From IMG/VR virus record IMGVR_UViG_3300023176_005819, positions 1-20,444 of that record: a stretch of DNA of 20,444 nucleotides. The stretch is one strand, 5' to 3'. Made by a program: the position numbers and the translations under genes. Under the pieces are notes generated by a model. That model saw only the letters and a list, made by a program, of their open reading frames with translations, was not told where the DNA came from and made no database searches. This stretch comes from a virus. Shown piece after piece: positions 723-19,874 of the stretch. Numbering within the stretch: position 1 is the first letter of the stretch; the number at the start of each line of letters is the position of its first letter.

Positions 723-3700
723 ATGGCAACAAGTTCAAGACAAACACGTATATTTGGTTTAGAAGACTGGAAGTCTTTATATCAAACTTACAACCAAGCA
801 GATTTCCAAAGTTATAACTTTGAAACTTTACGTAAAAGTTTTGTAGATTACATTAGACAAAACTACCCAGAAGACTTCAACGATTATGTTGAATCTTCGG
901 AGTTTATTGCGTTACTTGATGTTATAGCATTTATGGGACAAGCAATCTCATACAGACAAGACTTAAACACACGTGAAAACTTTTTAGACACAGCAGAACG
1001 CAGAGACTCAGTTGTGCGTTTAGCAGACTTAGTCAGTTATACACCAAAACGTAACGAGAACTCAAGTGGATTTTTAAAAGTAACAAGTGTTGCCACAACA
1101 GAAAATATCACAGATTACAATGGTGTTAATTTAGCAAACGTAAAAGTACGTTGGAATGACTCAACTAATTTGGATTGGCAAGACCAATTTAACACAGTAC
1201 TAAATGCACTGTTAGTTGATTCACAAAAAATAAACAATCCTGGAAGATCAGCAACAGTGTTAGGCATTGATACAGATGAGTACACAGTTAACTTAGCAAA
1301 CAATCTACTTCCAGTTATTCCATTTAGTAGCAATGTAAATGGAACTGCAATGAATTTTGAAATTGTCAGTTCTACTACAGCAAACAGTACAAGAGTTTAT
1401 GAACCTGCTCCAGTTTTAAACGGAGACTTTAATTTCTTATACAGGAATGACAAACAAGGATTTGCATCTGCAAACACAGGTTTCTTTTTCCACTTTAAAC
1501 AAGGTACACTGACAAACAAAGACTTTACATTGAATGACAGAATTGCAAATAGAAGTGTTGATGTAAATGTGGAAGGTGTTAACAATAACGATGTATGGTT
1601 GTATGAATTAAATACAACAACAGGTGAAGTCATAAACGAATGGGAGCAAGTTGAAAACGTTTATGCTCCAAAAACATCACAAACAAACACAAGTGATAAA
1701 AAATATTTTAGTGTAACTAGCAGAACAAACGACCAAGTAACATATAACTTTGGCGATGGTGCATTTGCAGATATCCCATTGGGTTTCTTTAGAACATTTG
1801 TTCGTGTCAGTAATGGCAGAGAATACACAATTAACAAAAATGATATCACAGGTGTAAGTATTTCTGTTCCATACGTTAGTAGAACAGGAAGAAGTGAAAC
1901 AGCAACATTCACGATGTCACTTACACAAAATGTAAGCAACGCAAGTAGCAGAGAAACAATCGACGAAATCAAACGTAATGCTCCAGCAAGATTCTACACA
2001 CAAAATAGAATGGTCAACGGCGAGGATTACAACAATTATCCTTACACTGCTTACAGTAGTATTATTAAATCAAAAGCAATTGCTAGATCAAACATTGGCA
2101 CAAGTAGACATTTAGATTTAGTTGATCCAACTGGAAAGTATTCCAGTGTTAATACTTTTAATTCGGACGGTGTTATATATCAGGATACTAAACAATCAAG
2201 TTTTACTTTTGACTTTGATGACAAAAACGATGTCAACGATGTAATAAGAAATCAAATTGAACCAATACTTGCTGATAGAAGTACAGTTCATTTGTATCAC
2301 AACGAATACACAAGAAAAGATTTAACTACTATAGATATCAGTTGGAAACAAAGTACAACTACAACAAATACAACAACTGGATATTTTAAAAATTCATCAG
2401 GTACACCATTGGCAATATCAAGTTATGCAGGTGGTAATGCACAGTACATTGCTCCAAATGCCTTAGTTAAATTTAAAACTCCGGATGCTGATAGTAACGG
2501 TGTTTATTACTTTGATGAAAATAATAGATTAAAACAAAAAGTAGCACTAGATTCAACAGATGTCACAACAATATGGACCAGTGTTAAAAGTGTTGTATTA
2601 GATGGAACAAACTTTGGATCAGGCAACGACGATGATGGAGTTGGTCCAGTAGTACTTACAGATTTTGTACCAACTGATGCAGAAGTAGAAGAAGTAATTC
2701 CTGTATTCAACACAGACTTGCCAACAGCACTTGAATCAGACATTTTAGATCAAGTAGAACTTTACAATGACTTTGGTTTGGGATATGATGCAGATGCAGG
2801 CGAATGGTATATTATTACAAGTACAAACATTGATAAAACAGGTGACTTTGATTTAGCAAACGCACAAGACACAAGTGGAACTGGTATTGATGCCAGTTGG
2901 TTTGTAAAACTAACAGCAACAGATAACGTTTACACAGTCACAAACAGAGAACTAAATTATTATTTCAGTAGTGTATTAGAGTCACGTTTTTACTACAACA
3001 AAAATGATAAAATATATGATCCAAAAACTGGACAAGTTGTAAACGATTTTGTTAAGGTACTAAAGACAAACACACAACCAGGAAGCAACAATCAATTAAA
3101 GACAGATATCAAACTAGACATTGTTGATCAGCCTGTGTTATCAGATGGATTCGTTAATGACTACTTAGTTGAAGTAAGTTACACAGATGATGATTCGGAT
3201 GGAGTTGCTGATAATCCAGATTTCTTCACAGACATCTCTACTACAAATGGACAAGTATTTTTCCAAACAACTACTGATGCAGATAACTTAGAAAGAGATT
3301 TACCACTAGCAAGTGGAACTGTTGAAGCAGACTATAATGAAACAACAGACAGTGAATTAGTATTAACAAGTTATCCAGAAAATCAACTGTTTTACTTTGC
3401 TAACGAAACAAACAAGTTTAGAAAATTAGTCGATGGTGAATTAACAGTTGTAACTGATATTGTTTTAAAAACTGGAAGACAAGATTTACAATTCCAATAC
3501 AGACACAACAGCAGTGAGTCTCAAAGAATTAATCCTGGTTTAACAAACATCATCGATATGTATTTGGTTACAGAAAGTTATTACAACAGTTACAGAAACT
3601 ATGTTCAAGACACAACTAATACAGTGTTGGAACCAACAGCACCTACAATCAACGAATTGAGCAGTGCTTATGCTGGATTAGAAGATAAGAAAATGTTAAG

Positions 3701-4097
3701 TGATAACATTGTTATGAACAGTGTTACATTTAAACCATTGTTTGGCACTAAAGCAAGTACAGATTTGAGAGCAAACATAGAAGTTGTAAAAGCACCCAAC
3801 ACTGTAATTAGCGACAGCGAAATAAAGAGTCAAGTAGTAAGTACTATCAACGATTATTTTGATATTGATAACTGGAGTTTTGGAGATACATTTTACTTCT
3901 CGGAACTTTCGGCTTACTTACATGAACAATTGGGAACAATAATTGGAAGTGTGGTAATTACACCAAAGGATACAAGCAAGAGTTTTGGAAATTTGTATGA
4001 GATAAAATCGGGTGCAAATGAAATTTTTGTAAATGCGTTAACAGTTAACGATGTTGTAATTGTTAAGAACTTGAGTCAAAGTACTTTAAACGGATAA
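723..4097 (+). CDS. 6: Baseplate wedge protein, gp6-like, enlarged
   Basis: This 1,124-residue protein resembles T4 gp6, the wedge subunit whose dimers form the continuous ring around the inner baseplate, but is much longer than T4 gp6 (660). Family signs run in order: residues 52-116 with FLDTAERRDSVVRLADLVSY followed by TPKRNENSSG; an NFGDGAFADIPLGF strand-turn near 340, as in gp6/gpJ-type baseplate proteins; ARFYTQNRMVNGEDYNNYPY near 421-440, matching the usual P-x-F-x-T-Q-N-R-x-V-x-x-x-D-Y; and a C-terminal domain (about 980-1090) with SFGDTFYFSELSAYLHEQLG. The extra length lies mainly between about 460 and 950. It is Asp/Thr-rich, with a run of Thr codons near 2352-2384, NDDDGVG at 2625-2645, and D-D-D-S-D-G-V-A-D-N-P-D at residues 822-833, which fits a thrombospondin-type-3 calcium loop. 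The gene ends TAA TAG. The start has no Shine-Dalgarno but the frame upstream is closed soon. Confidence 0.85.
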   Translation: MATSSRQTRIFGLEDWKSLYQTYNQADFQSYNFETLRKSFVDYIRQNYPEDFNDYVESSEFIALLDVIAFMGQAISYRQDLNTRENFLDTAERRDSVVRLADLVSYTPKRNENSSGFLKVTSVATTENITDYNGVNLANVKVRWNDSTNLDWQDQFNTVLNALLVDSQKINNPGRSATVLGIDTDEYTVNLANNLLPVIPFSSNVNGTAMNFEIVSSTTANSTRVYEPAPVLNGDFNFLYRNDKQGFASANTGFFFHFKQGTLTNKDFTLNDRIANRSVDVNVEGVNNNDVWLYELNTTTGEVINEWEQVENVYAPKTSQTNTSDKKYFSVTSRTNDQVTYNFGDGAFADIPLGFFRTFVRVSNGREYTINKNDITGVSISVPYVSRTGRSETATFTMSLTQNVSNASSRETIDEIKRNAPARFYTQNRMVNGEDYNNYPYTAYSSIIKSKAIARSNIGTSRHLDLVDPTGKYSSVNTFNSDGVIYQDTKQSSFTFDFDDKNDVNDVIRNQIEPILADRSTVHLYHNEYTRKDLTTIDISWKQSTTTTNTTTGYFKNSSGTPLAISSYAGGNAQYIAPNALVKFKTPDADSNGVYYFDENNRLKQKVALDSTDVTTIWTSVKSVVLDGTNFGSGNDDDGVGPVVLTDFVPTDAEVEEVIPVFNTDLPTALESDILDQVELYNDFGLGYDADAGEWYIITSTNIDKTGDFDLANAQDTSGTGIDASWFVKLTATDNVYTVTNRELNYYFSSVLESRFYYNKNDKIYDPKTGQVVNDFVKVLKTNTQPGSNNQLKTDIKLDIVDQPVLSDGFVNDYLVEVSYTDDDSDGVADNPDFFTDISTTNGQVFFQTTTDADNLERDLPLASGTVEADYNETTDSELVLTSYPENQLFYFANETNKFRKLVDGELTVVTDIVLKTGRQDLQFQYRHNSSESQRINPGLTNIIDMYLVTESYYNSYRNYVQDTTNTVLEPTAPTINELSSAYAGLEDKKMLSDNIVMNSVTFKPLFGTKASTDLRANIEVVKAPNTVISDSEIKSQVVSTINDYFDIDNWSFGDTFYFSELSAYLHEQLGTIIGSVVITPKDTSKSFGNLYEIKSGANEIFVNALTVNDVVIVKNLSQSTLNG

Positions 4098-4103
4098 TAG
4101 CAA

Positions 4104-7100
4104 ATGGCAAGAAATAGATCAGTAGATTTTTTACCTGAGATTTTTAAAACAGATCCCAATAAGGAATTTTTATCCGCAACACTTGACCAACTCACACAAG
4201 AACCCAAATTAAAACAAGTACAAGGTTACATTGGTAACAAGTTTAAAGGTGGCGTAAAAACAAACGACACTTACTTGACTGAACCAACAATTGAAAGAGC
4301 AAACTATCAATTAGAAACTGGTGTTGTTTTTAATGATGAGAACAACGATGTTCAACAAGCAATAACATATCCAGAAATTATCGATGCACTTAAAACACAA
4401 GGTGCAAATGTCACACGTCACGATAGACTTTTTAGTAGCGAAGCATACAGTTGGAGTCCGTTAATTGATTTAGATAAATTTATCAATCATACACAATACT
4501 ACTGGATGCCTAATGGCCCAGACAGTGTTGACGTTCAAGCAACAGAAATAGATTTCACAGACACATATGTAGTAACCGAAGAGGACAACTATTACAGTTT
4601 TGATGGCATTGCAGGTGAGAATCCAACATTAACATTGGCACGTGGCGGAGAATATACCTTTCGAGCAGATTCAGAAAAGTTCTATATACAAACAGAACCA
4701 GGAACAAGTGGTACTAAAGCCTCTACACCAAATGTAAGTACAAGAGAAATTAATGGCGTCACAAACAACGGTGGTGGAAACATTACCTTTGCTGTGCCAG
4801 AAGCATCTGCACAACAGTTTTATCATGATTTAACTAAAGTAACAAATGTCGATTTGGCAACCTTCTCAAGATTTGATTCTATTAATGGTGCAGTATTAAG
4901 CAACTTAAAAACAATCGATGGTGTATCTGATTTAAACGGTAAGACAATTATATTCCTAGACAAAACAGCAGGTGATAGTGCAGACTTGGGTTGGCAATAT
5001 TTAGATTTGTTTGAATCAAATGATGGATTCGAATCAGATGCAATGGATGAGCCAACATATATTGATTCACAAGCAGACAGATACAGCGTCTACAAAATCC
5101 AATATCTAACAAGTGGCGATAGTACTGTTTTGAAACTTGTCAAAATTAAAGCAATCAACAAACACGAAAAATTCGATATCAACTATGGCAATACGTATGC
5201 TGGTTTAACTTTTTATAAAAATTCAGCAGGATACTTTGATGAAGTTCCTGTGTTGACTGCATCGGCAACAAAATTGTATTATCAAGATGCCACAAATGCC
5301 GATAGATTTGGTATTATAAATTTAGTAGACAATGTTGAAAATGTAGAACTAAATGTTGATGAAGATATTGTTGGAAAAGCAACTTACACAAGTCCCAATG
5401 GTGTTCAATTTACAAACGGATTAAAAGTTGTCTTTAGAGGAAATGTAGAACCAGAAACTTACAGTGAAAAAACATACTGGGTTGAAGGAGTAGGCACAAG
5501 TATTGTTTTGATACCAACTGAAAATTTAATAACTCCGGAATCGTTTACAGAAAGCGAAACACAACCGTACGATAGTTTGGGGTACGATTCGAGTAGTTTT
5601 GATTCTGCACTTAATTCTCCTATAGGAATTGATTACTTTACAATAAACAGAGCGAGTAATGATCTAAATGCTTGGACCAGAGGAAACAGATGGGTTCATA
5701 AACAAGTCATTGAAAAAACTGCCGAGTACAATAAAACAACTCCTGTATTCGATAATGATAATAGAGCGGCAAGACCTATTATAGAATTTAAACCTAACTT
5801 AAAACTTTTCAACTACGGTACAGAAAGTTTGGGTTCTGTAAACATTATTGATTTAACAGAGACAGATGCTTTAAGTAATGTCAATGGTGCCGCAAGTCAC
5901 GAATATGACAGTTATCAAGTTGTTGACGGAACAAAAATTATTTTTGCAAATGATTCAGATCCTGATGTTAAAAATAAAATTTACACTGTTGAGTTTGTAG
6001 ACTTACAAGATGATGGCACAGAAGAAATTAGATTAGTTGAACACACAACAAATATATTAACAGATCAATTAGTTGTTGTAGAAAATGGAACAACACAACA
6101 AGGTAAAGTTTATCATTACAATGGCACAAGTTGGATTGCTTCTCAACAAAAAACAAAACTAAATCAAGCACCGCTGTTTGACATTTACGATACAAATGGA
6201 AAAAGTTTCAGCGATACTGCTACATATAAGAGAACAACATTTGCAGGTACTAAAGTTTTTGCTTACGGTGTAGGAACAGGATTAGATGATGCTACATTAG
6301 GTTTTCCTTTGAAGTATCTCAGTATTGATAATATTGGCGATATTGTTTTTGAGAATCATTTATACACAGATACTTTTACATATGACATCACTGATATCAA
6401 AAAGAATATATCCGATGGCTTTGTGAGAAAGTACAGTGATAGAACTACATACACAAACGAAATTGGATGGACTACACATATTGATGAATATGTAGATGAC
6501 CAAGTGTTTAATTTCACATACAACGGAACAAGTTTAATCCTTGATGTGATATTAAAAAGTAATTTAAATACTCCAAATATAAAAGTTTATATCGATGGTA
6601 AGTATTGCCCAAGCAGTGATTACACTGTTACTGAAAGTTTAGCAGACAACACAACAACTGTGACATTCGACATAGAAGTCACAACAGGTGCAGACATTTA
6701 TGTAACAGCAATAAGTGATCAAAAGAGTCAAGTTGCTTACTACAGTATCCCATTCAACTTGGAAAACAATCCATTCAACGAAAATTCAACAGAATTTACG
6801 TTGGGTACTGTGAGAAACCATTACATTGAAATGGGACAAAACTTAATGAACCTAACTGGCGACATCAGTGGATCAAATAACAGTAGAGATTTACCCAACA
6901 TTGAAAAGTATAGTAGAAACATCATTCAAAATAGTTCTCCTGTAATTCCATTAGCAAAATTTTTACACAGCGACAAGTTTGATTATTTTGCAAGTTTAGA
7001 CTTTGCTAGTAACGCCTATGAAAAGTTTAAATTAAAAATTATTGATTACGTAAACAAAAATGACACGTATGATATGATTGCGTGTGATGTATTAGACGCG

Positions 7101-10100
7101 GCACTCAAAGAAATTAACATCGGTAAAAACAGTTTAAATGCCTATTACAAGAGCGATATGTTACCTGGAGCAACAACTCCAACTACAACCAAATACACAG
7201 TAACAGCAATCACAACTACAACATTTAATACTGAAGAAGTATATGATTTTACACAAGCAAATGGTAAAGCAATATTAGTATATATTAATGGAGTAATATT
7301 AACCAAAGACGAAGATTACACAGTCAGCACAGACAGTGCTAACATCACTGTAACAAAAACTTTAGCAGTTGGTGATGTGGTAACAATTAAAGAATATGAT
7401 ACAACTGTTGGTTCTTATGTTCCTAATACTCCATCTAAGATGGGATTACATCCAGTGTATGTTCCTAAAAAGTACACAGACAATTCATACACAACAGCAA
7501 CTGAAGTTATACAAGGACACGATGGAAGCATCACAGTTGCTTACGGTGACTCACGTGATGATGTGTTATTAGAATTTGAAAACAGAATTTACAACAACAT
7601 CAAAGTTGCAAGTGACAACTTGATTCCAATTATTGAGAGTGATGTTATTCCTGGTAAGTTTAGAACAACAGACTACACAGACGAAGAAGTAACAAGTATC
7701 TTAAGTGTCAGTTTCTTAAAATGGTTAGCATCTAATAGACTTGAATACAAAACACAAGACTACAATGCCGCAAACGAATTTACTTGGAACTATACAACTG
7801 CTGGAAGTATATTAGATGGAACAGCATTGAAAGGTCATTGGAGAGGAGTTTACAAAAACTATTACGACACAGATACTCCACACACAACACCTTGGGAAAT
7901 GTTAGGCTTGAGTAAAAAGCCTACGTGGTGGGAAGATGAATATGGACCTGCTCCTTATACCAGTGGTAACTTGGTATTGTGGGAAGATTTAGAAGCAGGA
8001 AGAATCAAAGATCCAAGCAACACAAGAATAGACACAAGATATGCTCGTGCTAACTTGACTGATGTTATTCCTGTTGACACAGCAGGAAATTTAAAAAGTC
8101 CATTTGAAGCAATAGTAAACAACTACAACAGTGTAGACTTTAAAAAGAGTTGGGTGTTTGGTGATCAAGGACCAACAGAAACTGCATGGCGTAGATCAAG
8201 TTCTTATCGTTTTGCTTTACAAAGATTATTTGCGTTAACTAAACCAGCAAAATATTTTGCTCTGAATATAGACAGAGATTTATACAAGTACGATGATACT
8301 ATTGGACAATACTTGTGGGATGGAAGATATAGATTAAACGCAACTGAAGTTGTGACACAAAAAGAAGACCAGCCGAAACACAGTTACACAAATTGGGTTG
8401 CAGACTATCACAACAACAATGGATGCGAATGTATTGAGATTAGTCAAGAACTAGCAAGAACTGATGTGAGACTTTGCTACAGAATGGCATCGTTTACAGA
8501 CAAGAGTTACTTAAAGATATTCACAGATAAAAGTAGTCCTGATAGTTCAAACACAGGATTACAGATTCCTGATCAAAATTACAAGTTATTGTTACACAAA
8601 AATATGCCACTGGCTGAATTACAGTTTAGTTCAGTTATTGTTCAAAGAACAGCAGATGGATACAGTGTATATGGACACAGTAAGACACAACCATATTTTG
8701 AAATTTACAGAAGTGTAACAACTGCAAATGGATATGCAATTGGCGATTACATAGTCCCAACAGAATTTAAAAACACAGTTACAACAGTTCCATATGGATA
8801 CGTGTTTACCAGCAAAGGTGCTGTTGTTGACTTCCTAGCAAGTTATGGTGCTTTCCTTGAAGACAAAGGAATGGTATTTGACGATACAGAAAATAGCACA
8901 TCTCTAAATTGGGGACAAATGGCAGAAGAGTTTCTTGCTTGGTCTGGACAAGATTGGGGTACAGGTGCAATCATTAATTTAAATCCAGGTGCTATAAGTT
9001 TACAGTTCAACAAAGCATTATCAATTGTAGATGATATCACAAAGAACAATATCGATGCACTAGATCAAAATGGATTGCCATTATTAAAAGAAGATTATGC
9101 CATAACACGTCTGGATAATTCATTTAGAATTCAAACAGTTAACAACAAGTCAATTAATTTATTAAAAATTAAATCTATCAGTTACGAACATTTATTAGTA
9201 TTAGATAACACAAGTATCTTTAACGATTTAATTTATCAACCTGTCACAGGATTAAGACAACAGCGTCTACGTGTTGTTGGCTTTAATACATTCGAATGGA
9301 ATGGACAGTTAGATGCACAAGGCTTTATTTTAAATCAAGACAATGTTGAAGATTGGAAACAAGACACTTACTACACAATGGGTAGTATTGTTAAGTACAA
9401 GAATTCTTACTGGAGCAGTGTTAAGAAACTAGAACCAAAAGAGACATTTGAATTTGGCGACTGGAGAAAAATTAATTACGAAGACATCAAGAAAGGATTG
9501 CTTCCTAACGTTGCCAACAAGGCAGGACAAATCAGAGAATACTATAACAAGAAAACTACTAACTTAGAATCAGATGTTGATCTACTTGCTATGGGCTTAC
9601 TTGGATACAGACCAAGAGATTATTTAAGCACACTGGATGATGTCAGTAGAGTCAATTTCTATACAAGATTTATTGCTGAAAAAGGTACAACATTAAGTGC
9701 AGATGTATTCAAGAATGTTGAGTTAGACAAACAAGTCACAGACTATGATATATTTGAAAACTGGGCAATCAAAGAAGCAACATTTGGTAACAGCGATAAC
9801 AGAGTTTATGTTGAATTAGAATTAGAAAAGTCTAAACTTGAGAGTAATCCTACATTAGTAGAAGTTGTTGAAGATCAAAGTTCTATCACAGTTGTTAATG
9901 GAACCACAGTTGATACATCATCGATAACAGCAGACACAACAGAGCACACAGCAGACCCAGATAGAGTTGTTGAAGTTGTTAGAACCCCAAGTACTAAGAA
10001 ACATCAAGTTATCAATGTAAGCGACATTTATGCTCAGTCAACTACACATACTAACAGTGATATATTCCCAATTAGAACTACACAGTTAACAGATACTAAT

Positions 10101-13100
10101 TTACCAACTGCTGGTTTTGTGAATACAAATGATGTCGATATAGCATTGTTTGAAAAAACAGATCTAAATGGCACTAGTGGAATTGTTTTCTTGAATCAAG
10201 TCGAAGATGGAACAACTATTTGGGTTGCAAAAGACAACGTTTACAATTGGAATGTTTACAGAGCAGAACAAGTCGCAAACATAAAGTCTATCACAGAGAA
10301 TGACACAGGTGTGTTGACTGTTGTATTTTATGACGCACACGAATTAGCAACTAACGAATGGTTAGTGATACAAGACTTAAGTACTGAAGTAAACGGTGCT
10401 TACAAAGTAACCAAAGTAAACAGCACGACAGAAATTGAAATTTCTAACACAATTGAATCAGCATATGTCCAAGTAACAGCAGATGCCAATGTAGTTACAT
10501 CTGATTCTGGATTATACAGTGCAGACCATACAACAGGAAGTGTATACAGATTGGTAAGTGTTAGAGCAGAATCATATACAGATTTAAGTAGTGGTTATTT
10601 CTCTACATTAGCAGATGATTCGTTGGCTTGGGTCGATAACAATGCAGACGGTAAGCCAGCAGTTTATAAAAAGACAAGTGGAGATTGGACGCAATACAGA
10701 GTACAACAAGATGTTGTTGATACAAAACTAATTAGTAAGGCATTGATATATGACAAAACAACAGAAGTAACTGATGTAGATTTAGACTATATAGATCCAT
10801 TAAATGGTAAATTGTTGGGTGATGCTCAAGAAAATATCGATTACATTACTATACAAGATCCAGCCATATACAATTACGATACAAGCCTAACTGGAGTTGT
10901 ATGGGCAGAACAACACGTTGGCGAAATTTGGTGGGATATTTCAAACACAAGATTCCTTGATTACTATGCAAGTGATGAAAACTATGCAAGTAAAAATTGG
11001 GGTACACTGTTTCCTGGAAGCACAGTAGATGTTAGACAGTGGGTTAAAAGTTCTTTACCACCATCAAAGTATACAGGTGTTGGTACTGTAGTTGATGCAA
11101 CAAAGTACACACAAGTATCAAAAGTTAATTCAGCAAATACAATTACACAAAATTATTACTTCTGGGTAACTGGCGTTGACAGTATTCAAAACAATAAGAC
11201 ATTGAGTTTGAATAATATAAAGACTTATATTTCTACACCAACTGCATCGGGAATACCGTATGCGGCATTTGTAGATAGAAGTACAGTGGCACTTTACAAC
11301 GCAAACAAATATATTCTTGATGGAATACTACACATCTCTTACGATAAAACAGAAAGTAAGAACAGTGTGTTTAACGAATTTAAGTTAATCAAGAAAAACA
11401 ACAAAAACAGTTTCTTAAGCGACAATACTTATTTAAAACTACAAGACAGTTTAATCGGTGGTAACAAAGTTGGTTTATCAGTTCCTGATAAAACACTCAC
11501 ACCAGTGAGTAGAGTAGGTGTTGGATTTAGGCCAAGACAGTCTATGTTTGTTGATAGATTTTCGGCATTAAAGTCATACTTAACTTATGTAAACAGTGTA
11601 CTTGAACAACATATTATTTCAAACAACAAAGACTTTACACAACTCAACAAAGCAGAAGCAATGCCCGGAGAGTCAAGTGGTCAATGGGATAAGAAAGTAG
11701 CAGACTTAGATGAATTAGGATATCAAAATTTATTAACAGTTGCAGTTGGATACAAATACTTAGTGGAAGTTGACAGCGACAATCAAAGTGGTTGGAGTAT
11801 ATACGAAGTTGTTTCTGGACCTGCATTACAACTGATAAAAGTTCAATCTTATGACACAACACGCAGTTGGAGTTATGTTGATTGGTACAAAGATACTGCG
11901 GCCCAAAACGCAATATTTGAAGCAATTGTTGATGACACATCTAAATTAACATCAGTAACAGTTGCTGACAGCAAGTACATCAAAGTAAACACAAACAGCG
12001 ACGGTAAATTTGAAGTGTATCAATACACTGATGGAAATTACGAACGTGTTGGTTTAGAAGATGGAACAATAGCATTTAACAGTAGTATTTGGTCTGGACA
12101 ATCTACGCAAGATAATATCACAGTTGACTCAAGTTTATTCACTGCAGACAACATTTACAACAGAGCAAGTGCCGGCACAGGCGGAAATGAATTACGTAAT
12201 ATTATCAAAGCGATCAATGAAGATTTGTTCACAGGCGATTTATTAATAGAACGTAACAAAGCATTAATGGTTGTGTTTGATTATATTTTATCTGAACAAC
12301 AAAACATAGACTGGTTAACTAAAACAAGTTTCATTGACATTGAGCAAAAAGTCAGAGACCTAGCACAATACACAACATACAAAAAAGATGATCAAGAGTT
12401 TTTACAGAATTATATCAACGAGAGTAAGCCTTATCATACTGCAATCAAAGAATTTTTATTGAAGTACAGTGGAACAGATCAGTACAATGCAGATACATTA
12501 GACTTTGACTGTCCTGCATATTATGATACAACCTTTGGAAAATATATTAGTCCTGTTTTGGATTACGATGGGGTTGTATTAAAGTCAGATCAAAGTAACT
12601 TCGATGATGATGGAGTTGGACTCAAGGAAACAAATTACAACATCTGGGAATTAGATCCGTGGGATAATTGGTACAACAATAGACTACTAGATGTTAAGAG
12701 TTTTACAATTATAAATGCTGGTACTGGTTATACAGAAGTTCCTAAAGTTATTGTCACAGGTGGTGGAGCAACTACACAAGCAACTGCAACTGCTAGAATT
12801 AACAACAGTGGAAACATAATTGAGATTAACTTGGTTACAAATGGTGAAGGATATTCATCAACACCAACTGTAACAATTGAAGGCAACGGTACAGGTGCAA
12901 TAGTAACACCTGTCATGCAAAACCGATTGGTACGTAACGTTGTTACAACATTAAAGTACGATAGATTAGAATACGATTACACAGTTGTTGATTGGACAAA
13001 GAATACAACACTGAGAACAACCATAGACGATACAAGTGTAACTGTAGACGCAGATACATTAACAGTTGATTCTTATGATACAGTTTATGACGCAGGACAA

Positions 13101-15422
13101 TTGGTACGTCATGAAAATAAAGTTTACACACACAATGTAACTAGAGCATTTAAATCTAAGTTCTTACTAGACGACTTCACTATTGCAGATTCAAGCACAC
13201 TATCTTCTACTGATAGAACAATGGGTTACTACACACCTACTGTAAATATGACAGGATTAAATTTACCAATGTTAATTGATGGTGTTGAGTATCCAGGTGT
13301 ATTAGTTGATGATGTAGACTTCACAGATACAACAACTGTATTAGATGCAGAACTCAAGAGTTCATTTGGAAACACATATTTAGGCACAAGCACAGAAGAT
13401 ATATTAACAGAAGGCGGTGCGTTTATCGATGAGTACTCAAGTCATAGTCCGGAAGAATTAATTCCAGGTGCAATGTATGACACAGTTGATATCAAAGTTC
13501 ACACACGTCCTGGTTACGATTATCAAGACAACGGTCATGGATTTGCGGCAGACTATATAAGACATAGATACACAACTGCTGGATCAAATACATTCTCATT
13601 TGCAAATGTAGTAGAGCATCCAATTAAATTAATTGTTATAAATGGAACCACTGGTCGTAGATTACACGTAACAGAAGACTACACAGTTGATTGGGTAAAC
13701 AAAACAATCACAGTCATAGCAAATGCTTTTGATCAAGACACTATACAAATTAACGTTTACGAAATCGGCGGCGGTAACCAATTGTACAGAAACACTTATG
13801 TTGGTACAGACTTTACAACAGATTTAGATATTCCTGTTGCGGCACAAGAAATTTATGAGATCGTTATATTAGTAAACGGTGTGAGATTAACCAGTGGATT
13901 TTCATCTACAGCAGATGGTAAGTTAACTGTGGATAATACACTTACTACAGCAGACTCTACAGTCTCAGTTGACAAAGTATCAACTGTTGAAAATTCAATC
14001 ACAACTATTTCGTTTACACAAAACTACAGTGCAAGTGACTTTATTTCAATAACAGTATTTGGATTTGATGGTGAAAATTACGATTGGAGTTATCCAATTA
14101 ACACACATTATGATCCTTACACAGCAGACACAGAGAATGATATAACCGCTGATAGTACAGAACTAAGAGTAGATCAAGTTGGATTTGATGTAGGTGCAGA
14201 TGTGTATGTTGGTGGTAGAAACAGAATGTGTGCTATTGTTGAAAACAGTGGATTTAGATTGAGACCACCAGAGGCAAAACGTTATACAGGTGATGGAACT
14301 GAAACAGACTTTAGATTACCAACTACAGGCGACATAGATCACACACTAGTTTCAAACAGTGAGATAGTTGTATTTGTCGGCACAGAGAGACAAACACTAT
14401 CAACTGATTACACAGTAATAACAGTCGTTGATGGCAGTGATACATACAAAGAAGTAAGTTTCACTACAGCACCAACTAGTGGAAGTATCATAGATGTATA
14501 CACAACACACTCCGCAGAATACACATTTAGTGATGCAGGTATTGTACAAATTAAACCAAGTGTTGGTTTAGTTGGAACTGATCACATAGAAGTAACAACA
14601 TTTAATGACACAGATCAACAAGATATGTTAACAAATGTATTTGTTGGTCCCACTACAGTTACAACTCCTATTATAGAATTGTTTGACAGTGGTGCATTTG
14701 ATACAGTTAGTTTTGATTATGTTAGTACATCTGCAAGTGACACTAACTTGTTTGATGTGGGCAGAGATATTTCAAACGACAATAGACTATGGGTAACTGT
14801 CAATGGTGAATTCTTATTGGCAGATGCAGATTATTATGTTTCAGGAAGCAATGTTCTTGTTGGCGGGGACCTTTTATCTCCAACTGATGTAGTCGTTATT
14901 ACAAGTTTCACAAGTAACCTGGTTCCAGATGCAATCAGTTTTAGATGGTTCAAAGATATGAATGGTAATGTAGCAATGTATAAGATGGATGATTACCACA
15001 TAGAGAAATTAAAGTATGACGTCACAGCAGATGCTGATATTATGTATTTGGAAAACACTGCCAATATGCCAGTTCCAAACTTGACACTTGGAAACTTTGG
15101 TATTGTAATGATAGGTGCAGAACGTGTCACATACAGAGAATTAGACACAGTCAATCACACAATAAGTGGATTGCGTAGAGGTACTGCTGGCACAGCCGCG
15201 GCACCACACACAAAAGGTACATCAGTGGAAGACTTTAGTAGAAAACACTTCATTGAAAACACAGAAAAAGAGTCAACTACATTAGACAGTGTCACTAGTA
15301 CAACAAGTTATGAAGGTGATAAGATTTGGTATGCAAGTGGAGCCACTACTGCAAGTAATGGCATAGCACTACAAAACCAAACAACTACACAAGCAACATT
15401 TATTAAAAACGTAGATATTTAA
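4104..15422 (+). CDS. Giant virion structural protein (3,772 residues), baseplate/tail periphery
   Basis: One unbroken frame encodes a protein of roughly 0.4 MDa, several times longer than T4 gp7 (1,032), which holds this position after gp6 in T4. I recognise it as the very large structural protein of marine T4-like phages, not as a family with proven function. Landmarks: an N-terminal SWSPLIDLDKFINH region (116-135); a cupredoxin-like module (about 163-243); PWEMLGLSKKPTWWEDEYG (from 1263); DNTSIFNDLIYQPVTGLRQ (near 1700); GLLGYRPRDYL (near 1831); two GY-x3-P repeats (2870-2938); several NG…DYTV beta modules, mostly after 3170; and GAERVTYRE…GLRRGTAGTAA (about 3670-3700). I see no signal peptide, membrane segment or enzyme motif, and only about seven Cys. 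The ATG has no Shine-Dalgarno and lies six bases after the gp6 stop in the same frame, so coupled translation is likely. Baseplate-rim location is inferred from gene order; a tape-measure role is unlikely because it lacks long helices. Confidence 0.8.
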   Translation: MARNRSVDFLPEIFKTDPNKEFLSATLDQLTQEPKLKQVQGYIGNKFKGGVKTNDTYLTEPTIERANYQLETGVVFNDENNDVQQAITYPEIIDALKTQGANVTRHDRLFSSEAYSWSPLIDLDKFINHTQYYWMPNGPDSVDVQATEIDFTDTYVVTEEDNYYSFDGIAGENPTLTLARGGEYTFRADSEKFYIQTEPGTSGTKASTPNVSTREINGVTNNGGGNITFAVPEASAQQFYHDLTKVTNVDLATFSRFDSINGAVLSNLKTIDGVSDLNGKTIIFLDKTAGDSADLGWQYLDLFESNDGFESDAMDEPTYIDSQADRYSVYKIQYLTSGDSTVLKLVKIKAINKHEKFDINYGNTYAGLTFYKNSAGYFDEVPVLTASATKLYYQDATNADRFGIINLVDNVENVELNVDEDIVGKATYTSPNGVQFTNGLKVVFRGNVEPETYSEKTYWVEGVGTSIVLIPTENLITPESFTESETQPYDSLGYDSSSFDSALNSPIGIDYFTINRASNDLNAWTRGNRWVHKQVIEKTAEYNKTTPVFDNDNRAARPIIEFKPNLKLFNYGTESLGSVNIIDLTETDALSNVNGAASHEYDSYQVVDGTKIIFANDSDPDVKNKIYTVEFVDLQDDGTEEIRLVEHTTNILTDQLVVVENGTTQQGKVYHYNGTSWIASQQKTKLNQAPLFDIYDTNGKSFSDTATYKRTTFAGTKVFAYGVGTGLDDATLGFPLKYLSIDNIGDIVFENHLYTDTFTYDITDIKKNISDGFVRKYSDRTTYTNEIGWTTHIDEYVDDQVFNFTYNGTSLILDVILKSNLNTPNIKVYIDGKYCPSSDYTVTESLADNTTTVTFDIEVTTGADIYVTAISDQKSQVAYYSIPFNLENNPFNENSTEFTLGTVRNHYIEMGQNLMNLTGDISGSNNSRDLPNIEKYSRNIIQNSSPVIPLAKFLHSDKFDYFASLDFASNAYEKFKLKIIDYVNKNDTYDMIACDVLDAALKEINIGKNSLNAYYKSDMLPGATTPTTTKYTVTAITTTTFNTEEVYDFTQANGKAILVYINGVILTKDEDYTVSTDSANITVTKTLAVGDVVTIKEYDTTVGSYVPNTPSKMGLHPVYVPKKYTDNSYTTATEVIQGHDGSITVAYGDSRDDVLLEFENRIYNNIKVASDNLIPIIESDVIPGKFRTTDYTDEEVTSILSVSFLKWLASNRLEYKTQDYNAANEFTWNYTTAGSILDGTALKGHWRGVYKNYYDTDTPHTTPWEMLGLSKKPTWWEDEYGPAPYTSGNLVLWEDLEAGRIKDPSNTRIDTRYARANLTDVIPVDTAGNLKSPFEAIVNNYNSVDFKKSWVFGDQGPTETAWRRSSSYRFALQRLFALTKPAKYFALNIDRDLYKYDDTIGQYLWDGRYRLNATEVVTQKEDQPKHSYTNWVADYHNNNGCECIEISQELARTDVRLCYRMASFTDKSYLKIFTDKSSPDSSNTGLQIPDQNYKLLLHKNMPLAELQFSSVIVQRTADGYSVYGHSKTQPYFEIYRSVTTANGYAIGDYIVPTEFKNTVTTVPYGYVFTSKGAVVDFLASYGAFLEDKGMVFDDTENSTSLNWGQMAEEFLAWSGQDWGTGAIINLNPGAISLQFNKALSIVDDITKNNIDALDQNGLPLLKEDYAITRLDNSFRIQTVNNKSINLLKIKSISYEHLLVLDNTSIFNDLIYQPVTGLRQQRLRVVGFNTFEWNGQLDAQGFILNQDNVEDWKQDTYYTMGSIVKYKNSYWSSVKKLEPKETFEFGDWRKINYEDIKKGLLPNVANKAGQIREYYNKKTTNLESDVDLLAMGLLGYRPRDYLSTLDDVSRVNFYTRFIAEKGTTLSADVFKNVELDKQVTDYDIFENWAIKEATFGNSDNRVYVELELEKSKLESNPTLVEVVEDQSSITVVNGTTVDTSSITADTTEHTADPDRVVEVVRTPSTKKHQVINVSDIYAQSTTHTNSDIFPIRTTQLTDTNLPTAGFVNTNDVDIALFEKTDLNGTSGIVFLNQVEDGTTIWVAKDNVYNWNVYRAEQVANIKSITENDTGVLTVVFYDAHELATNEWLVIQDLSTEVNGAYKVTKVNSTTEIEISNTIESAYVQVTADANVVTSDSGLYSADHTTGSVYRLVSVRAESYTDLSSGYFSTLADDSLAWVDNNADGKPAVYKKTSGDWTQYRVQQDVVDTKLISKALIYDKTTEVTDVDLDYIDPLNGKLLGDAQENIDYITIQDPAIYNYDTSLTGVVWAEQHVGEIWWDISNTRFLDYYASDENYASKNWGTLFPGSTVDVRQWVKSSLPPSKYTGVGTVVDATKYTQVSKVNSANTITQNYYFWVTGVDSIQNNKTLSLNNIKTYISTPTASGIPYAAFVDRSTVALYNANKYILDGILHISYDKTESKNSVFNEFKLIKKNNKNSFLSDNTYLKLQDSLIGGNKVGLSVPDKTLTPVSRVGVGFRPRQSMFVDRFSALKSYLTYVNSVLEQHIISNNKDFTQLNKAEAMPGESSGQWDKKVADLDELGYQNLLTVAVGYKYLVEVDSDNQSGWSIYEVVSGPALQLIKVQSYDTTRSWSYVDWYKDTAAQNAIFEAIVDDTSKLTSVTVADSKYIKVNTNSDGKFEVYQYTDGNYERVGLEDGTIAFNSSIWSGQSTQDNITVDSSLFTADNIYNRASAGTGGNELRNIIKAINEDLFTGDLLIERNKALMVVFDYILSEQQNIDWLTKTSFIDIEQKVRDLAQYTTYKKDDQEFLQNYINESKPYHTAIKEFLLKYSGTDQYNADTLDFDCPAYYDTTFGKYISPVLDYDGVVLKSDQSNFDDDGVGLKETNYNIWELDPWDNWYNNRLLDVKSFTIINAGTGYTEVPKVIVTGGGATTQATATARINNSGNIIEINLVTNGEGYSSTPTVTIEGNGTGAIVTPVMQNRLVRNVVTTLKYDRLEYDYTVVDWTKNTTLRTTIDDTSVTVDADTLTVDSYDTVYDAGQLVRHENKVYTHNVTRAFKSKFLLDDFTIADSSTLSSTDRTMGYYTPTVNMTGLNLPMLIDGVEYPGVLVDDVDFTDTTTVLDAELKSSFGNTYLGTSTEDILTEGGAFIDEYSSHSPEELIPGAMYDTVDIKVHTRPGYDYQDNGHGFAADYIRHRYTTAGSNTFSFANVVEHPIKLIVINGTTGRRLHVTEDYTVDWVNKTITVIANAFDQDTIQINVYEIGGGNQLYRNTYVGTDFTTDLDIPVAAQEIYEIVILVNGVRLTSGFSSTADGKLTVDNTLTTADSTVSVDKVSTVENSITTISFTQNYSASDFISITVFGFDGENYDWSYPINTHYDPYTADTENDITADSTELRVDQVGFDVGADVYVGGRNRMCAIVENSGFRLRPPEAKRYTGDGTETDFRLPTTGDIDHTLVSNSEIVVFVGTERQTLSTDYTVITVVDGSDTYKEVSFTTAPTSGSIIDVYTTHSAEYTFSDAGIVQIKPSVGLVGTDHIEVTTFNDTDQQDMLTNVFVGPTTVTTPIIELFDSGAFDTVSFDYVSTSASDTNLFDVGRDISNDNRLWVTVNGEFLLADADYYVSGSNVLVGGDLLSPTDVVVITSFTSNLVPDAISFRWFKDMNGNVAMYKMDDYHIEKLKYDVTADADIMYLENTANMPVPNLTLGNFGIVMIGAERVTYRELDTVNHTISGLRRGTAGTAAAPHTKGTSVEDFSRKHFIENTEKESTTLDSVTSTTSYEGDKIWYASGATTASNGIALQNQTTTQATFIKNVDI
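4590..4832 (+). other. Cupredoxin-like beta domain inside the giant protein, copper ligands missing
   Basis: Residues 163-243 of the giant protein read as the plastocyanin-like module common in marine phage virion proteins: NPTLTLARGGEYTF, then FYIQTEPGTSGT, then a GVTNNG turn and ITFAVPEASAQQFYHD. In complete copies that I know, the last strand continues as Y-Y-x-C-x-x-H-x-x-M with copper-type ligands. Here the strand ends QQFYHDLTKV, with no Cys and no Cys-x2-His. The fold call comes from pattern memory; metal loss is seen directly. Confidence 0.5.
12711..12917 (+). repeat. Two GY-x3-P-x-V beta repeats in the giant protein
   Basis: Residues 2870-2938 hold two copies of one pattern: NAGTGYTEVPKVIVTGGG and TNGEGYSSTPTVTIEGNG, separated by an Ala/Thr-rich strand and a G-N-I-I-E-I-N-L-V strand. 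This G-x-G-Y-x3-P-x-V-x-I-x-G-x-G repeat is widespread in phage virion proteins and probably forms a short beta-solenoid or spacer. It is in frame and intact. Confidence 0.65.
13621..14915 (+). repeat. Series of NG…DYTV beta modules near the giant protein's C-terminus
   Basis: Four related modules follow each other at about 13623-13772, 13850-14068, 14358-14515 and 14781-14915. Each has a strand with V-x-V/I-x-G (VINGTTGR, LVNGVRL, VFVGTERQ, TVNGEFL), a D-Y-x-V or equivalent turn (DYTV, DYTV, DYYV; weakest in the second copy), and a late strand with D-x-I/V-x-V. Two more copies lie earlier at about 6579-6717 (KVYIDGKY…SDYTV) and 7266-7400 (VYINGVILTKDEDYTV). They look like the tandem beta modules of phage fibre and tail-tip proteins and may place adhesive surfaces at the protein's distal end. 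Copies are diverged at DNA level, so they are old. Confidence 0.55.
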
Positions 15423-15425
15423 ATG

Positions 15426-15433
15426 CATAAATA
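15426..15433 (+). promoter_or_regulatory. Candidate late promoter box (CATAAATA) before the 40-residue ORF
   Basis: The same CATAAATA octamer as at 690-697 lies in the 16-base gap after the giant gene. A T4-type late start 6 bases downstream of the box would fall on base 15439, the A of the next ATG. If functional it would yield a leaderless message for the 40-residue ORF and a leader of about 125 bases for the gene at 15564. The evidence is only the motif and its placement between genes. Confidence 0.4.
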
Positions 15434-15438
15434 GTGCT

Positions 15439-15561
15439 ATGAAGGAAGATAAGAAAACACAAAAACCTAAACCAAATGAAGCAGGTGCAATAAGTGTTGA
15501 GGCACATTTAAAAATATTTGATCCAAATACTGAGCAAGTATTTGTTAATAAAAGAAGTTAA
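15439..15561 (+). CDS. 40-residue ORF, truncated tandem paralogue of the next gene's N-terminus
   Basis: This short frame runs from ATG at 15439 to TAA at 15559-15561. After a Lys/Pro-rich start (MKEDKKTQKPKPNEAGA) it reads VEAHLKIFDPNTEQVFVNKRS. The neighbouring gene begins almost the same way: VEGFLKIFDPATNEIFFEG. The two copies share an exact 19-base stretch 92 bases apart. The small protein ends just where its paralogue continues into NAIHFENMS, so it looks like a partial duplicate that lost about 160 C-terminal residues, or a copy kept for a separate small role. Its stop is two bases from the next ATG, which suggests coupled translation. There is no Shine-Dalgarno sequence, and it sits directly after a candidate late promoter. 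The homology is clear; whether the peptide is made is open. Confidence 0.6.
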   Translation: MKEDKKTQKPKPNEAGAISVEAHLKIFDPNTEQVFVNKRS

Positions 15562-15617
15562 TTATGAAAGAAACAGCAAAACCAACAGTTGAAGGATTTT
15601 TAAAAATATTTGATCCA
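15507..15617 (+). repeat. Direct repeat pair from partial gene duplication
   Basis: A 19-base sequence (TTTAAAAATATTTGATCCA) occurs at 15507-15525 and again at 15599-15617, a spacing of 92 bases. Around it the two copies keep weaker similarity at DNA level and clear similarity at protein level (LKIFDP in both). This is the DNA trace of the tandem relation between the 40-residue ORF and the 201-residue gene, and could support deletion or expansion by recombination. Confidence 0.85.
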
Positions 15618-16169
15618 GCAACCAACGAAATATTTTTTGAAGGTTCAAACGCAATACACTTTGAAAATATGTCAGAGTCTTTGGCACAGAGTTTGTCTAA
15701 CAAAGACTTGGGTTACATATATCAAATGTCGTTTGGTAACGGTGGAACATCAGTTGATCCAACAGGAACTATAACATATCTTCCAGCAAACACAACAGGA
15801 CAAAATGCAGATTTGTATAACGAAACTTTTCAAAAAGTTGTTGATGATAATTCATTAACAAACACAGATACATCTAGAAACAATTTAACTGTGTTACATA
15901 CTTCTGGAAAAGTTTATACAGATATTTTAGTCAGTTGTTTGCTTGATTATTCGGAACCAACTGGACAACAAGCATTTGATAATTCAACAGATTTAGATGG
16001 AGAATATGTATTTGACGAATTAGGTTTAAAAACCTGGAACGGATCAGCAAGTGATCTGAGATTAATTACACACGTTGTATTTCATCCAGTACAAAAAGCA
16101 TTAAACAGGCAAATACAAATCGATTATACAGTTCGTATACAAACACTTACGAACCTTAGCACAACATAG
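15564..16169 (+). CDS. Conserved virion structural protein (201 residues), function unknown
   Basis: I recognise this as a protein family conserved in marine T4-like phages next to fibre genes, without an established role. Conserved-looking features in order are LKIFDPATNEIFFEGSNAIH and FENMS (18-42), MSFGNGGTSVDPTGTITYLP (about 52-71), a D-L-Y-N-E-T-F-x-K-V-V-D segment (about 82-93), LHTSGKVYTDI (about 111-121), YVFDELGLKTW (about 147-157) and THVVFHPVQKALNRQIQIDY (about 168-187) followed by TVRIQ. It appears to be a compact, mainly beta protein with no signal peptide or membrane segment. The start is two bases after the stop of its truncated paralogue, in the sequence TAATTATG; upstream DNA is purine-rich (AAAAGAAG), a weak ribosome site. 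Its stop overlaps the ribosome site of the next gene, so the fibre genes are probably co-translated with it. A tail or collar accessory protein is plausible from position only. Confidence 0.8.
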   Translation: MKETAKPTVEGFLKIFDPATNEIFFEGSNAIHFENMSESLAQSLSNKDLGYIYQMSFGNGGTSVDPTGTITYLPANTTGQNADLYNETFQKVVDDNSLTNTDTSRNNLTVLHTSGKVYTDILVSCLLDYSEPTGQQAFDNSTDLDGEYVFDELGLKTWNGSASDLRLITHVVFHPVQKALNRQIQIDYTVRIQTLTNLSTT

Positions 16170-16177: not shown

Positions 16178-17509
16178 ATGGCTTACGAAGTTAACTTTAC
16201 AAACGGAACAGTAGCAAAACTCGTAGAGGACGGTATAACCGACAGCACATACAGTGTTAAGTTAGTTGGTAAAAACGTCACTGCATACGGAGAGACATTT
16301 GCTGAAAACTTTATTAAATTATTAGAAAACAGTGCCAACAACACAGCACCCACAAACCCAGTTGAAGGTCAACTTTGGTTTAATACAAACAGTGTTGCTG
16401 TTGATAGTATTGCACCTAATTCAATTGGTGTTTATGATGGTACTAAATGGAAAGCATTAGGCGGTGCAACAGTACAAAGCACACAACCATCAAGTCCAGC
16501 AGACGGTGATTTATGGTACGATACAACTAACAAACAATTAAAAGTTTACAGCGGTACTGCGTGGGATGTTGTAGGTCCTGAATACAGTTCAGTTGATGGT
16601 AAAAACGGAGCAATCACAGAAACAGTTGAGGATACATTAGGCAATAATCATATTATTACAAAAATTTACTCAGCAACAGAAGGTGCTCCTGGTTCTACAC
16701 AAGTTGTAGCAACAGTCAGTAAAGATGCAGAATACACATTAGCAGTAGCAGATCAATTTACAGGATTCACTGGTACTATTAAACCGGGTATTCAATTATC
16801 AAGTTCAATTGGTAGTGTTAAATTCCATGGAGAAGCAACAAGTCTAAGTGGATACGATGAAACAGATTTTTTAAGTAGTACAACAAACGATACCACAGCA
16901 GGAACACTAGGTGTTTTAAATGATGGCGGTATCACAGTTGGTGCTAGTTCAGATTTAACAGTGACTGTTAGCACAGATGATGTAGTTATTAAGAACAACA
17001 CATCAGATGGTGACATAACAATTGGTGTCAACGATGGCGGAACCCCAACTACAGTAATTACAATTGACGGTGCTACAGCAACAGCAAGAGTAAACGCCGA
17101 TCCAAGTGCAAACTTAGGTATTGCTACTAAACAATATGTAGATACAGCAGAAACAGATGCAGTTACAACAGCAAACAACTACACAGACACGGAAATCACA
17201 TCGTTGATTGACAGTGCTGGTGCCGGTTACCAAACATTAGGTGACATTGAGACAAGTGTGGGAACTGTATCAAGTGCAAGTACAAGTGGGTTAGCACTTA
17301 AATTAGATAAAGCAGGCGGAACAATGACTGGTGCGTTAACATTAAGTGGAGCACCAACGGCAAGTTTACACGCCGCAACAAAAGATTATGTTGACACACA
17401 AACAAGTGCTGTCACACCAGCCGCAGGAACAAACGGTTATGGAACAAGAACTGTAAGTTCGTCTGCACCAAGCGGTGGTTCCGATGGCGATGTATGGTAT
17501 AGAATTTAA
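16178..17509 (+). CDS. Tail fibre-like protein with ENFIKLLEN cap and K-x-YVD repeats
   Basis: This 443-residue protein is built like phage fibres. Residues 1-70 form a cap with YGETFAENFIKLLEN and PVEGQLWFNT, a frequent N-terminus in marine phage fibre and virion proteins and the probable attachment end. Two more G-D-L-W-Y / YDGTKW type hairpins follow (to about 130). Residues 237-322 form a module ending ATKQYVD, 67% identical to one in the fibre gene at 18510. A second canonical fibre repeat follows, with GGTMTGALTLSGAPT and HAATKDYVD (near 390-410). The protein ends PSGGSDGDVWYRI, a common fibre C-terminus. A Ser/Thr/Asp-rich composition and absence of hydrophobic helices fit a trimeric beta fibre. 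It starts at a strong Shine-Dalgarno site and stops two bases before the adhesin-like gene. The name 'fibre' is well supported; receptor specificity is not visible. Confidence 0.8.
   Translation: MAYEVNFTNGTVAKLVEDGITDSTYSVKLVGKNVTAYGETFAENFIKLLENSANNTAPTNPVEGQLWFNTNSVAVDSIAPNSIGVYDGTKWKALGGATVQSTQPSSPADGDLWYDTTNKQLKVYSGTAWDVVGPEYSSVDGKNGAITETVEDTLGNNHIITKIYSATEGAPGSTQVVATVSKDAEYTLAVADQFTGFTGTIKPGIQLSSSIGSVKFHGEATSLSGYDETDFLSSTTNDTTAGTLGVLNDGGITVGASSDLTVTVSTDDVVIKNNTSDGDITIGVNDGGTPTTVITIDGATATARVNADPSANLGIATKQYVDTAETDAVTTANNYTDTEITSLIDSAGAGYQTLGDIETSVGTVSSASTSGLALKLDKAGGTMTGALTLSGAPTASLHAATKDYVDTQTSAVTPAAGTNGYGTRTVSSSAPSGGSDGDVWYRI
16886..17143 (+). repeat. 86-residue fibre module, copy 1
   Basis: Residues 237-322 (from NDTT to KQYVD) match residues 187-272 of the fibre encoded at 18510 without gaps, 58 of 86 identical by my hand count. 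The best-kept pieces are GTLGVLND, TSDGDI, VNDGGTPTT, TIDGAT and ATKQYVD. The copies lie about 2.2 kb apart in the same orientation, on either side of the glycine-rich gene. Confidence 0.9.
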
Positions 17510-18509: not shown

Positions 18510-19874
18510 ATGGCATACACAATTAATAAAACAAATGGATCAGTTTTCGCCACTATTGCAGATGGAACAGTAGACACGTCTAGTTCTATTTCTATTATTG
18601 GAAGAAACTATTCGGGATACGGTGAATTTTTAGGTGAAAACTTTATCAAGTTGTTAGAAAATCATTCTAACGCATCGGCACCGTCTGCTCCACTAGAAGG
18701 TCAATTGTGGTATGACTCAACAAACAATATTTTAAAAGTTTACAATGCTACTGAATTTAAACAATTAGCACACGTAAGTGTTGGAACAACAGCACCTACA
18801 ACAAGTTTAGTAAGCGGCGATTTATTTTATAAAACAAGTACACAACAATTATATGCGTACGATGGTTCAAGTTTTGAACTTATTGGTCCAACAGTTGGTA
18901 GTTCTACACTAACAGGTGACCAAGATTTAAACGGTAATGATATTATTGGAACTGGTGATATTAATATCACAGGTACAGTTACAGCAACAGGTGGTTTTAG
19001 TGGAACAGCAACAGACTCAGATTCATTGGGTGGAGTTGCCGCGGCAAACTATCTAAGAAGTAATGCTAACGATACTACATCGGGTACACTAGGTGTATTA
19101 AACGATACAGGTTTAGCAGTTGGTGTTGATTCAGACTTTACTGTGACAGTCAGTAGTAGTGATGTTACATTAGCAAATGCTACATCAGACGGTGACATTA
19201 TTTTTAGTGTTAACGACGGCGGTACACCAACAACAGCAATGACTATTGATGGTGCTACAACATTAATTACTATCACAGGTGATCCAACAGCGGCACTGGG
19301 TGTTGCTACTAAACAATATGTAGATTCGCAAGTGAGCAGTGGAGCATATTTAAACCAAGATGGATCTAACGCATTAACAGGTGACTTATTGCCTGATATC
19401 AATAACACAACAGACTTGGGATCAACAACAAAAGTATTCCAAGAAGTACACGCAACAACGTTTTACGGAACAGCAACAGAGGCTCAATATGCGGACGTGG
19501 CAGAACGCTTCCACGCAGACATGGTCATGGAACCAGGAACAGTTGTTGAAATGGGTGGAATTCATGAAATTACATCCGCAGTAGAAGAATTAACAGAAAA
19601 AGTGTTTGGAGTAGTATCAACTAAACCAGCACATTTGATGAATGCAAGAGCAGGAACCAATGAAACACATCCAGCAATTGCAATGAATGGAAGAGTTCCA
19701 GTGAAAGTTACTGGAATTATTCACAAAGGTGATCGACTAGTTTCGGCAGGTAATGGTTTGGCACGTGCGGCTAACACCGATGAAATAACTGCTTTTAACG
19801 TTATAGGAAGATCTTTAGAAAACAAAGACACAGAAGGCGAGGGAACAGTCGAGGCAATAGTGAAGATCAACTAA
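18510..19874 (+). CDS. Tail fibre-like protein with a C-terminal YADVAE domain
   Basis: This 454-residue protein shares its first 70 residues with the fibre at 16178 (35 of 70 identical, no gaps), including GENFIKLLEN and PLEGQLWYDS. Two W/F-Y hairpins follow (to about 128), then short fibre repeats, then the 86-residue shared module (187-272) ending ATKQYVD. Residues about 290-324 read as a DLGSTTKVFQEVHATTFYG pattern typical of the approach to a fibre's C-terminal domain. The last 130 residues (325-454) begin AQYADVAERFHADMVMEPGT and contain VFGVVSTKPAHLMN and NGRVPVKVTG. I know this domain from many cyanophage fibre-type proteins; it faintly resembles the Peptidase_G2 domain (YAE-x-FEW), an autocleaving intramolecular chaperone. 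Cleavage here is speculation. It stops with TAA after KIN. Confidence 0.82.
   Translation: MAYTINKTNGSVFATIADGTVDTSSSISIIGRNYSGYGEFLGENFIKLLENHSNASAPSAPLEGQLWYDSTNNILKVYNATEFKQLAHVSVGTTAPTTSLVSGDLFYKTSTQQLYAYDGSSFELIGPTVGSSTLTGDQDLNGNDIIGTGDINITGTVTATGGFSGTATDSDSLGGVAAANYLRSNANDTTSGTLGVLNDTGLAVGVDSDFTVTVSSSDVTLANATSDGDIIFSVNDGGTPTTAMTIDGATTLITITGDPTAALGVATKQYVDSQVSSGAYLNQDGSNALTGDLLPDINNTTDLGSTTKVFQEVHATTFYGTATEAQYADVAERFHADMVMEPGTVVEMGGIHEITSAVEELTEKVFGVVSTKPAHLMNARAGTNETHPAIAMNGRVPVKVTGIIHKGDRLVSAGNGLARAANTDEITAFNVIGRSLENKDTEGEGTVEAIVKIN
19068..19325 (+). repeat. 86-residue fibre module, copy 2
   Basis: This is the partner of the module at 16886-17143, in the same orientation and the same length, encoding residues 187-272 of the second fibre. 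Copies differ at many third positions (for example AACGACGGCGGTACACCA here against AACGATGGCGGAACCCCA), so the duplication or exchange is not recent. Confidence 0.9.

Follow-up and report, generated by a model that had tools for sequence, protein, structure and literature searches.

A conserved small gene that partly repeats the N-terminus of its tail-fiber-like neighbor across divergent giant phages

Introduction

Why would a giant phage carry, directly ahead of a long gene, an open reading frame (ORF) of 40 codons that repeats the beginning of that gene and then stops? The question is raised by a 20,444-nucleotide stretch of viral DNA (IMG/VR record IMGVR_UViG_3300023176_005819, positions 1 to 20,444; here referred to as the window), a 20.4-kb fragment that holds part of a tail-baseplate cluster. 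An earlier note on this DNA described the small ORF as a truncated tandem paralogue and offered three accounts of it: decay after duplication, a decoy or assembly regulator, and a relic of domain exchange. Here, we compare the small ORF with its neighbor and with related loci, and we ask which of these or other accounts fits best.

Baseplate-type neighbors in the window include a gp25-like protein (298-669) and a gp6-like protein (723-4097), followed by a single ORF for a 3772-residue protein (4104-15422) that matches phrog_10938 (virion structural protein). A brief stretch near residues 1197-1272 of the second part of this giant ORF matches a baseplate hub/lysozyme family. The small ORF (15439..15561, + strand) and the long ORF behind it (15564..16169, +) are accompanied by more structural or fiber-like ORFs. 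Two of the window's ORFs, at 16178-17509 and 18510-19874, share an N-terminal module (MAYxxNxTNG...GQLWF/Y...) and have the look of tandem paralogues, with a Gly-rich ORF between them; each of phrog_14394 and phrog_15511 is matched by both.

Results

The small ORF encodes 40 amino acids (MKEDKKTQKPKPNEAGAISVEAHLKIFDPNTEQVFVNKRS), ends in TAA, and falls into two parts: a Lys/Pro-rich lead with a P-N/D-E-x-G signature (residues 1-17; 15439..15489, +) and a hairpin segment placed by alignment with homologues (residues 19-39, SVEAHLKIFDPNTEQVFVNKR; 15493..15555, +). Its likeness to the N-terminus of the next gene, claimed earlier, is borne out: in a single BLASTP comparison, the two window proteins were identical at 14 of 31 positions (E 3e-06). 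What the small ORF repeats of the long protein is its first 20-odd residues only. The longest exact repeat that the two ORFs share, TTTAAAAATATTTGATCCA, is the 19-base repeat already reported, found at 15507..15525 (+) and again inside the long ORF at 15599..15617 (+), with a spacing of 92 bases. The small ORF also ends, as described, where the NAIH core of the long protein would start, two bases before the long start codon. The kinship is not a matter of chance, since the small-ORF profile also matches the long-protein N-terminus in other phages (Vibrio phage 2.275, E 3.7e-5; Phosso, E 2.9e-4). Across the small-ORF alignment, P12, I26, P29, and R39 are nearly invariant, and the window copy (KPNEAG, NKRS) shows the family pattern of a P-N/D-E lead, then a hairpin, then a C-terminal K-R-x or similar, as well as the family position directly before the long gene (copies separated from it by an insert also count). 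By these sequence comparisons, the long protein has in the small ORF an ancient partial paralogue of its N-terminus, made up of lead and beta-hairpin.

Existing protein families do not capture it. The window small ORF has no match to phrog_11259, the family of the long protein; it ends before the NAIH core and is thus a partial paralogue, not a member. PHROG and NCBIfam have no model for the small ORF, the sole PHROG matches being weak, at E 0.068 (N-terminal match of the copy in phage Atu_ph07 to phrog_11259) and E 0.3. Nor is the small ORF discussed in the papers searched.

The long ORF encodes 201 amino acids, belongs to phrog_11259 (E 1.7e-66 over residues 3-194), and has a predicted tail-fiber/tail-collar-like fold. 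A confident AlphaFold2 model (pLDDT 84, pTM 0.81) has an N-terminal beta-hairpin (15585..15647, +), whose strands are formed by residues 8-16 and 23-28, in addition to a mixed beta domain; the core, from NAIHFENMS on (15648..16166, +), is the part that is missing in the small ORF. A Foldseek search of BFVD, a comparison among predicted models only, returned tail-fiber and tail-collar fiber proteins with a probability of ~1.0 and TMq of 0.42-0.52. Among solved structures, the long protein had no relative by sequence, and a fold search of the PDB returned nothing below E 0.001 and nothing convincing. The Pfam search, which covered the proteins neighboring the small ORF, gave the long protein no family up to E 0.05, DUF3751/tail-collar included. 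In tail-collar-type fibers, the DUF3751 domain is a tail anchor (PMC7882524). Any likeness to this fiber anchor (P2 H, R-pyocin fiber N-terminus) lies in the predicted fold of the long protein only, and the anchor domain is missing from the small ORF. On the basis of predicted fold and gene order, the long protein may be a connector between fiber and baseplate.

An exact repeat between adjoining ORFs might be thought to mark recent copying. In 32 genomes, though, a genome's small and long hairpins resembled each other no more than did small and long hairpins compared across its three nearest relatives (Wilcoxon p = 0.22 for DNA and 0.15 for protein). Recent duplication and gene conversion were rejected for want of any such within-genome excess. 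The duplication is thus old and the 19-base repeat marks no recent event; its identity in the window is due to conserved codons for LKIFDP rather than to fresh copying. The case carries a caution, in that a short exact repeat between adjoining genes need not signal a recent duplication.

The earlier note had asked whether related phages carry the small ORF and whether it is under purifying selection, and both answers are positive. We gathered 80 viral contigs, metagenomic relatives of the window, by the long protein alone, so that the sample was not selected on the small ORF. At all 80 loci there is either an intact small ORF whose end meets the long start or one fused long ORF, in which the P-N/D-E lead and a single hairpin precede the core; a broken small ORF was found at none. 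A search with the small ORF of one relative (L047) returned 41 loci, of which 40 have complete small ORFs and one is cut by the contig end. Deeper searches placed the small ORF in far relatives as well, in all 11 PA5oct-like phages (gp356 in PA5oct), and in Atu_ph07 (gp179). A profile search found no separate small ORF in six annotated jumbo phages (Phosso, 121Q, RaK2, CBB, Vibrio phage 2.275, and XaC1), and it is therefore not essential across the whole family.

Pooled dN/dS over 13 independent pairs was 0.18 in the whole small ORF, 0.26 in its lead, and 0.10 in its hairpin; the first 11 hairpin codons, at 0.05, are its most constrained part. Fisher p values ranged from 1e-47 to 3e-11. Because all relatives that carry the ORF carry it intact, and because purifying selection holds it, we regard it as a functional gene. 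The proposal of a decaying or truncated relic fails on this evidence: the ORF is intact even in deep relatives and in 11 cultured Pseudomonas phages. The condition that the earlier note itself set for a decaying remnant, a lack of conservation or frame-breaking changes in close relatives, thus turned out contrary. A pseudogene or decaying duplicate is rejected on the count of 0/80 broken copies together with the dN/dS of 0.18.

The relatives fall into three forms: split (A), with a separate small ORF; fused (B), in which one ORF encodes lead, hairpin, and core; and a form that has only a long ORF and no lead (C). The 115 records that were classified comprise 48 of A, 58 of B, and 9 of C. Fused relatives (e.g., L009, L021, and L114) have the upstream box, lead signature, hairpin, and core of the window but in a single ORF, with neither a separate small ORF nor a second hairpin. 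The statement that the lead has no counterpart in the longer paralogue is accordingly right for the window but not for the family, as fused relatives bear the lead on the long protein. Domain exchange fares similarly: the lead is detached from or attached to the long protein according to lineage, but the reading of the small ORF as a relic does not stand. In most fused ORFs (e.g., L006:2941-2980, L009, L021, L030, and L038), a second Met lies ~9-17 residues in, before the P-N/D-E motif; being just before that motif, this internal ATG, rather than the box-adjacent one, may be the true start of the fused form.

We built a tree on the long cores, with hairpin and lead left out (71 non-redundant rows). 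The three states need 9 changes on it, B alone needs 5-6, and the deep PA5oct branch is A. Long branches converge close to the root, so the antiquity of the split state, as judged from this tree, is likely but a grade short of proof. The fused hairpin mixes residues of both types: a long-type G and D and, in 20/28, a small-type Arg. Given this mosaic and a parsimony that yields no polarity, we do not claim that fusion always proceeded from the split state, and the window's own lineage could have re-split from a fused one.

Among named phages, a close counterpart is found in an 11-phage group (PA5oct, MIJ3, Paride, Callisto, and others), where a 41-residue ORF, gp356 of Pseudomonas phage PA5oct (YP_010678858.1), lies between a giant structural gene and the long protein. 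It has a KKPDE lead, a hairpin-like segment (DHVKIVDLKTNKELLNKRG), and a TAAATA box 4-5 nt upstream, features that have their counterparts in the window; only about a third of its residues are identical to the window copy. In this group the small ORF is annotated as hypothetical (unannotated in two records), and the records state no function or kinship. PA5oct gp356 carries no ESI-MS/MS tag, and the preceding giant protein and the following long protein are both tagged. A Lys-rich peptide of ~4.7 kDa is easily lost on gels, so the missing tag is weak evidence against a virion role. In Agrobacterium phage Atu_ph07, the counterpart is gp179 (YP_009611844.1), a small ORF of 42 residues that contains the hairpin and precedes the long protein. 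It differs in having no P-N-E lead and a longer C-terminus, and in having a GIY-YIG/NUMOD3 endonuclease gene before the long gene. Such an endonuclease ORF between small and long ORFs occurs at two loci of distant phages, L083:2252-2965 (Atu_ph07 gp178, NUMOD3) and L125:1268-1984, with 43% identity between the two products over 223 residues. At a further locus (L103), an insert of ~340 bp with a reverse-strand ORF of ~80 codons separates the small and long ORFs.

Both flanks of the small ORF carry nucleotide signals. Upstream, a putative T4-type late-promoter-like box, ATAAATA (15427..15433, +), lies 4-5 bases before the small ORF, one of three copies in the window, all on the + strand. In the 45 nt ahead of the first ORF, TAAATA is present at 31 of 34 A loci and 26 of 28 B loci, compared with an expectation of 2.7 for all 70 loci together; most often the box is 4-5 nt from the ATG of that ORF. 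Ahead of the long ATG it occurs at just 2 of the 34 A loci. Late-promoter consensus sequences are TATAAATA in T4 and NATAAATA in cyanomyoviruses (PMC2984593). The TAAATA box matches the consensus and may act as a promoter. At two deep relatives (L099 and L101), the box overlaps the sole in-frame ATG/GTG of the small ORF, which makes either the start codon or the promoter reading uncertain there.

Downstream, the two ORFs meet at TAA-TT-ATG (15559..15566, +). Overlapping stop-start pairs can couple translation, and in the split form the small stop adjoins or overlaps the long start: the window has a 2-nt gap, most relatives have an ATGA or TAATG overlap, some loci are spaced differently, and ATGA was present in 38/38 loci of the L047 search with enough downstream sequence. 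The last Arg codon of the small ORF is AGA, AGG, CGA, or CGG in 32/32 and CGT or CGC in 0/32, although the latter two account for 44% of the Arg codons in the long cores and for 11/20 at the junction in fused genes. Shine-Dalgarno pairing exceeded that of synonym-shuffled versions in 25/32 loci and was weak in the window and its group. From codon choice and pairing together, it follows that the C-terminal K-R signature is partly a nucleotide signal. The 3' end is, in many lineages, partly constrained as a ribosome-binding site for the long gene, so the last residues say little about protein function. We have withdrawn the K-R signature as evidence of that kind, the codon choice fitting a ribosome-binding site.

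Discussion

The reading that we favor, with confidence that is about even, takes the small ORF for a working late gene whose product, an accessory structural mini-protein, is co-translated with the long protein, sits with its hairpin at a site of the type used by the long hairpin, and supplies its lead in trans. Late transcription would start from the box, with the small ORF as the first cistron ahead of the long gene, and translational coupling would keep the small protein in step with the long one. The small hairpin would then dock at a site of the kind that the long hairpin occupies, on a neighboring subunit or another baseplate or fiber protein, and the disordered Pro/Lys-rich lead would thereby be brought to the assembling tail tip; fused lineages would provide the same lead in cis. 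In favor are the gp25-like and gp6-like baseplate neighbors and the retention of the lead in fused genes. Synchronous translation, docking, and presence in the virion are steps that we infer. An AlphaFold2 model of small plus long protein, read through at L004, gave the small part a pLDDT of <50 and no docking contact; with only two rows covering that part, the result says little either way.

The main rival is a leader cistron, in which the act of translating the small ORF is what matters, re-initiation sets the dose of long protein, and the transcript starts at or near the small AUG. Much of the nucleotide evidence would suit it, namely, a box placed just before the small ATG and rarely before the long one, the ATGA overlap in all 38 loci of the L047 search, the Arg codon bias, and the Shine-Dalgarno excess. 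A leader needs no specific peptide, yet constraint is strongest in the initial half of the hairpin, a part that precedes any ribosome-binding site. It leaves the paralogy to the long N-terminus and the survival of the lead after fusion unexplained, and the Shine-Dalgarno match is weak in the window itself. We consider this account doubtful, if the best of the alternatives. The decoy or assembly regulator of the earlier note, a free hairpin that would compete for the partner of the long hairpin and so time or limit incorporation, seems to us unlikely. It would explain a hairpin without a core, made alongside the long gene, and an untagged gp356, but fused lineages have no free hairpin and yet keep the lead, and a pure competitor would have no need of a lead. 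Programmed frameshifting or stop read-through, joining small and long ORFs into one protein, is very improbable. The ORFs do abut, and in L004, L005, and L010 they share a single frame; across lineages, however, relative frame, spacing, and overlap vary, the junction holds a start codon and, in many lineages, a ribosome-binding site, and the product would have two hairpins, unlike natural fused genes. We rejected this candidate because the relative frame is not conserved. Least credible of all is a decaying remnant of a recent tandem duplication, which the shortness of the ORF and the exact repeat might suggest, against conservation out to PA5oct-like phages, purifying selection, the lack of any broken copy, and no within-genome excess of likeness.

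Returning to the accessory structural mini-protein, what is new here is a conserved partial-paralogue gene, structural on that reading, that exists in split and fused forms. It occurs in marine and freshwater metagenomes as well as in cultured Pseudomonas phages and lies next to a baseplate cluster. Genes of ~40 codons tend to be passed over or labeled hypothetical, and this one is conserved over very divergent giant phages. The alternation of free and fused forms amounts to a natural experiment on the role of the N-terminal lead and hairpin. More tentatively, and short of an even expectation, it is possible that these genes encode virion mini-proteins of a family so far unrecognized in jumbo T4-like phages, each a free-standing docking hairpin with a mobile, disordered lead, such that two kinds of subunit would fill quasi-equivalent baseplate sites. 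If that is true, evolution would have placed the lead, repeatedly, now on the main protein and now on a separate polypeptide.
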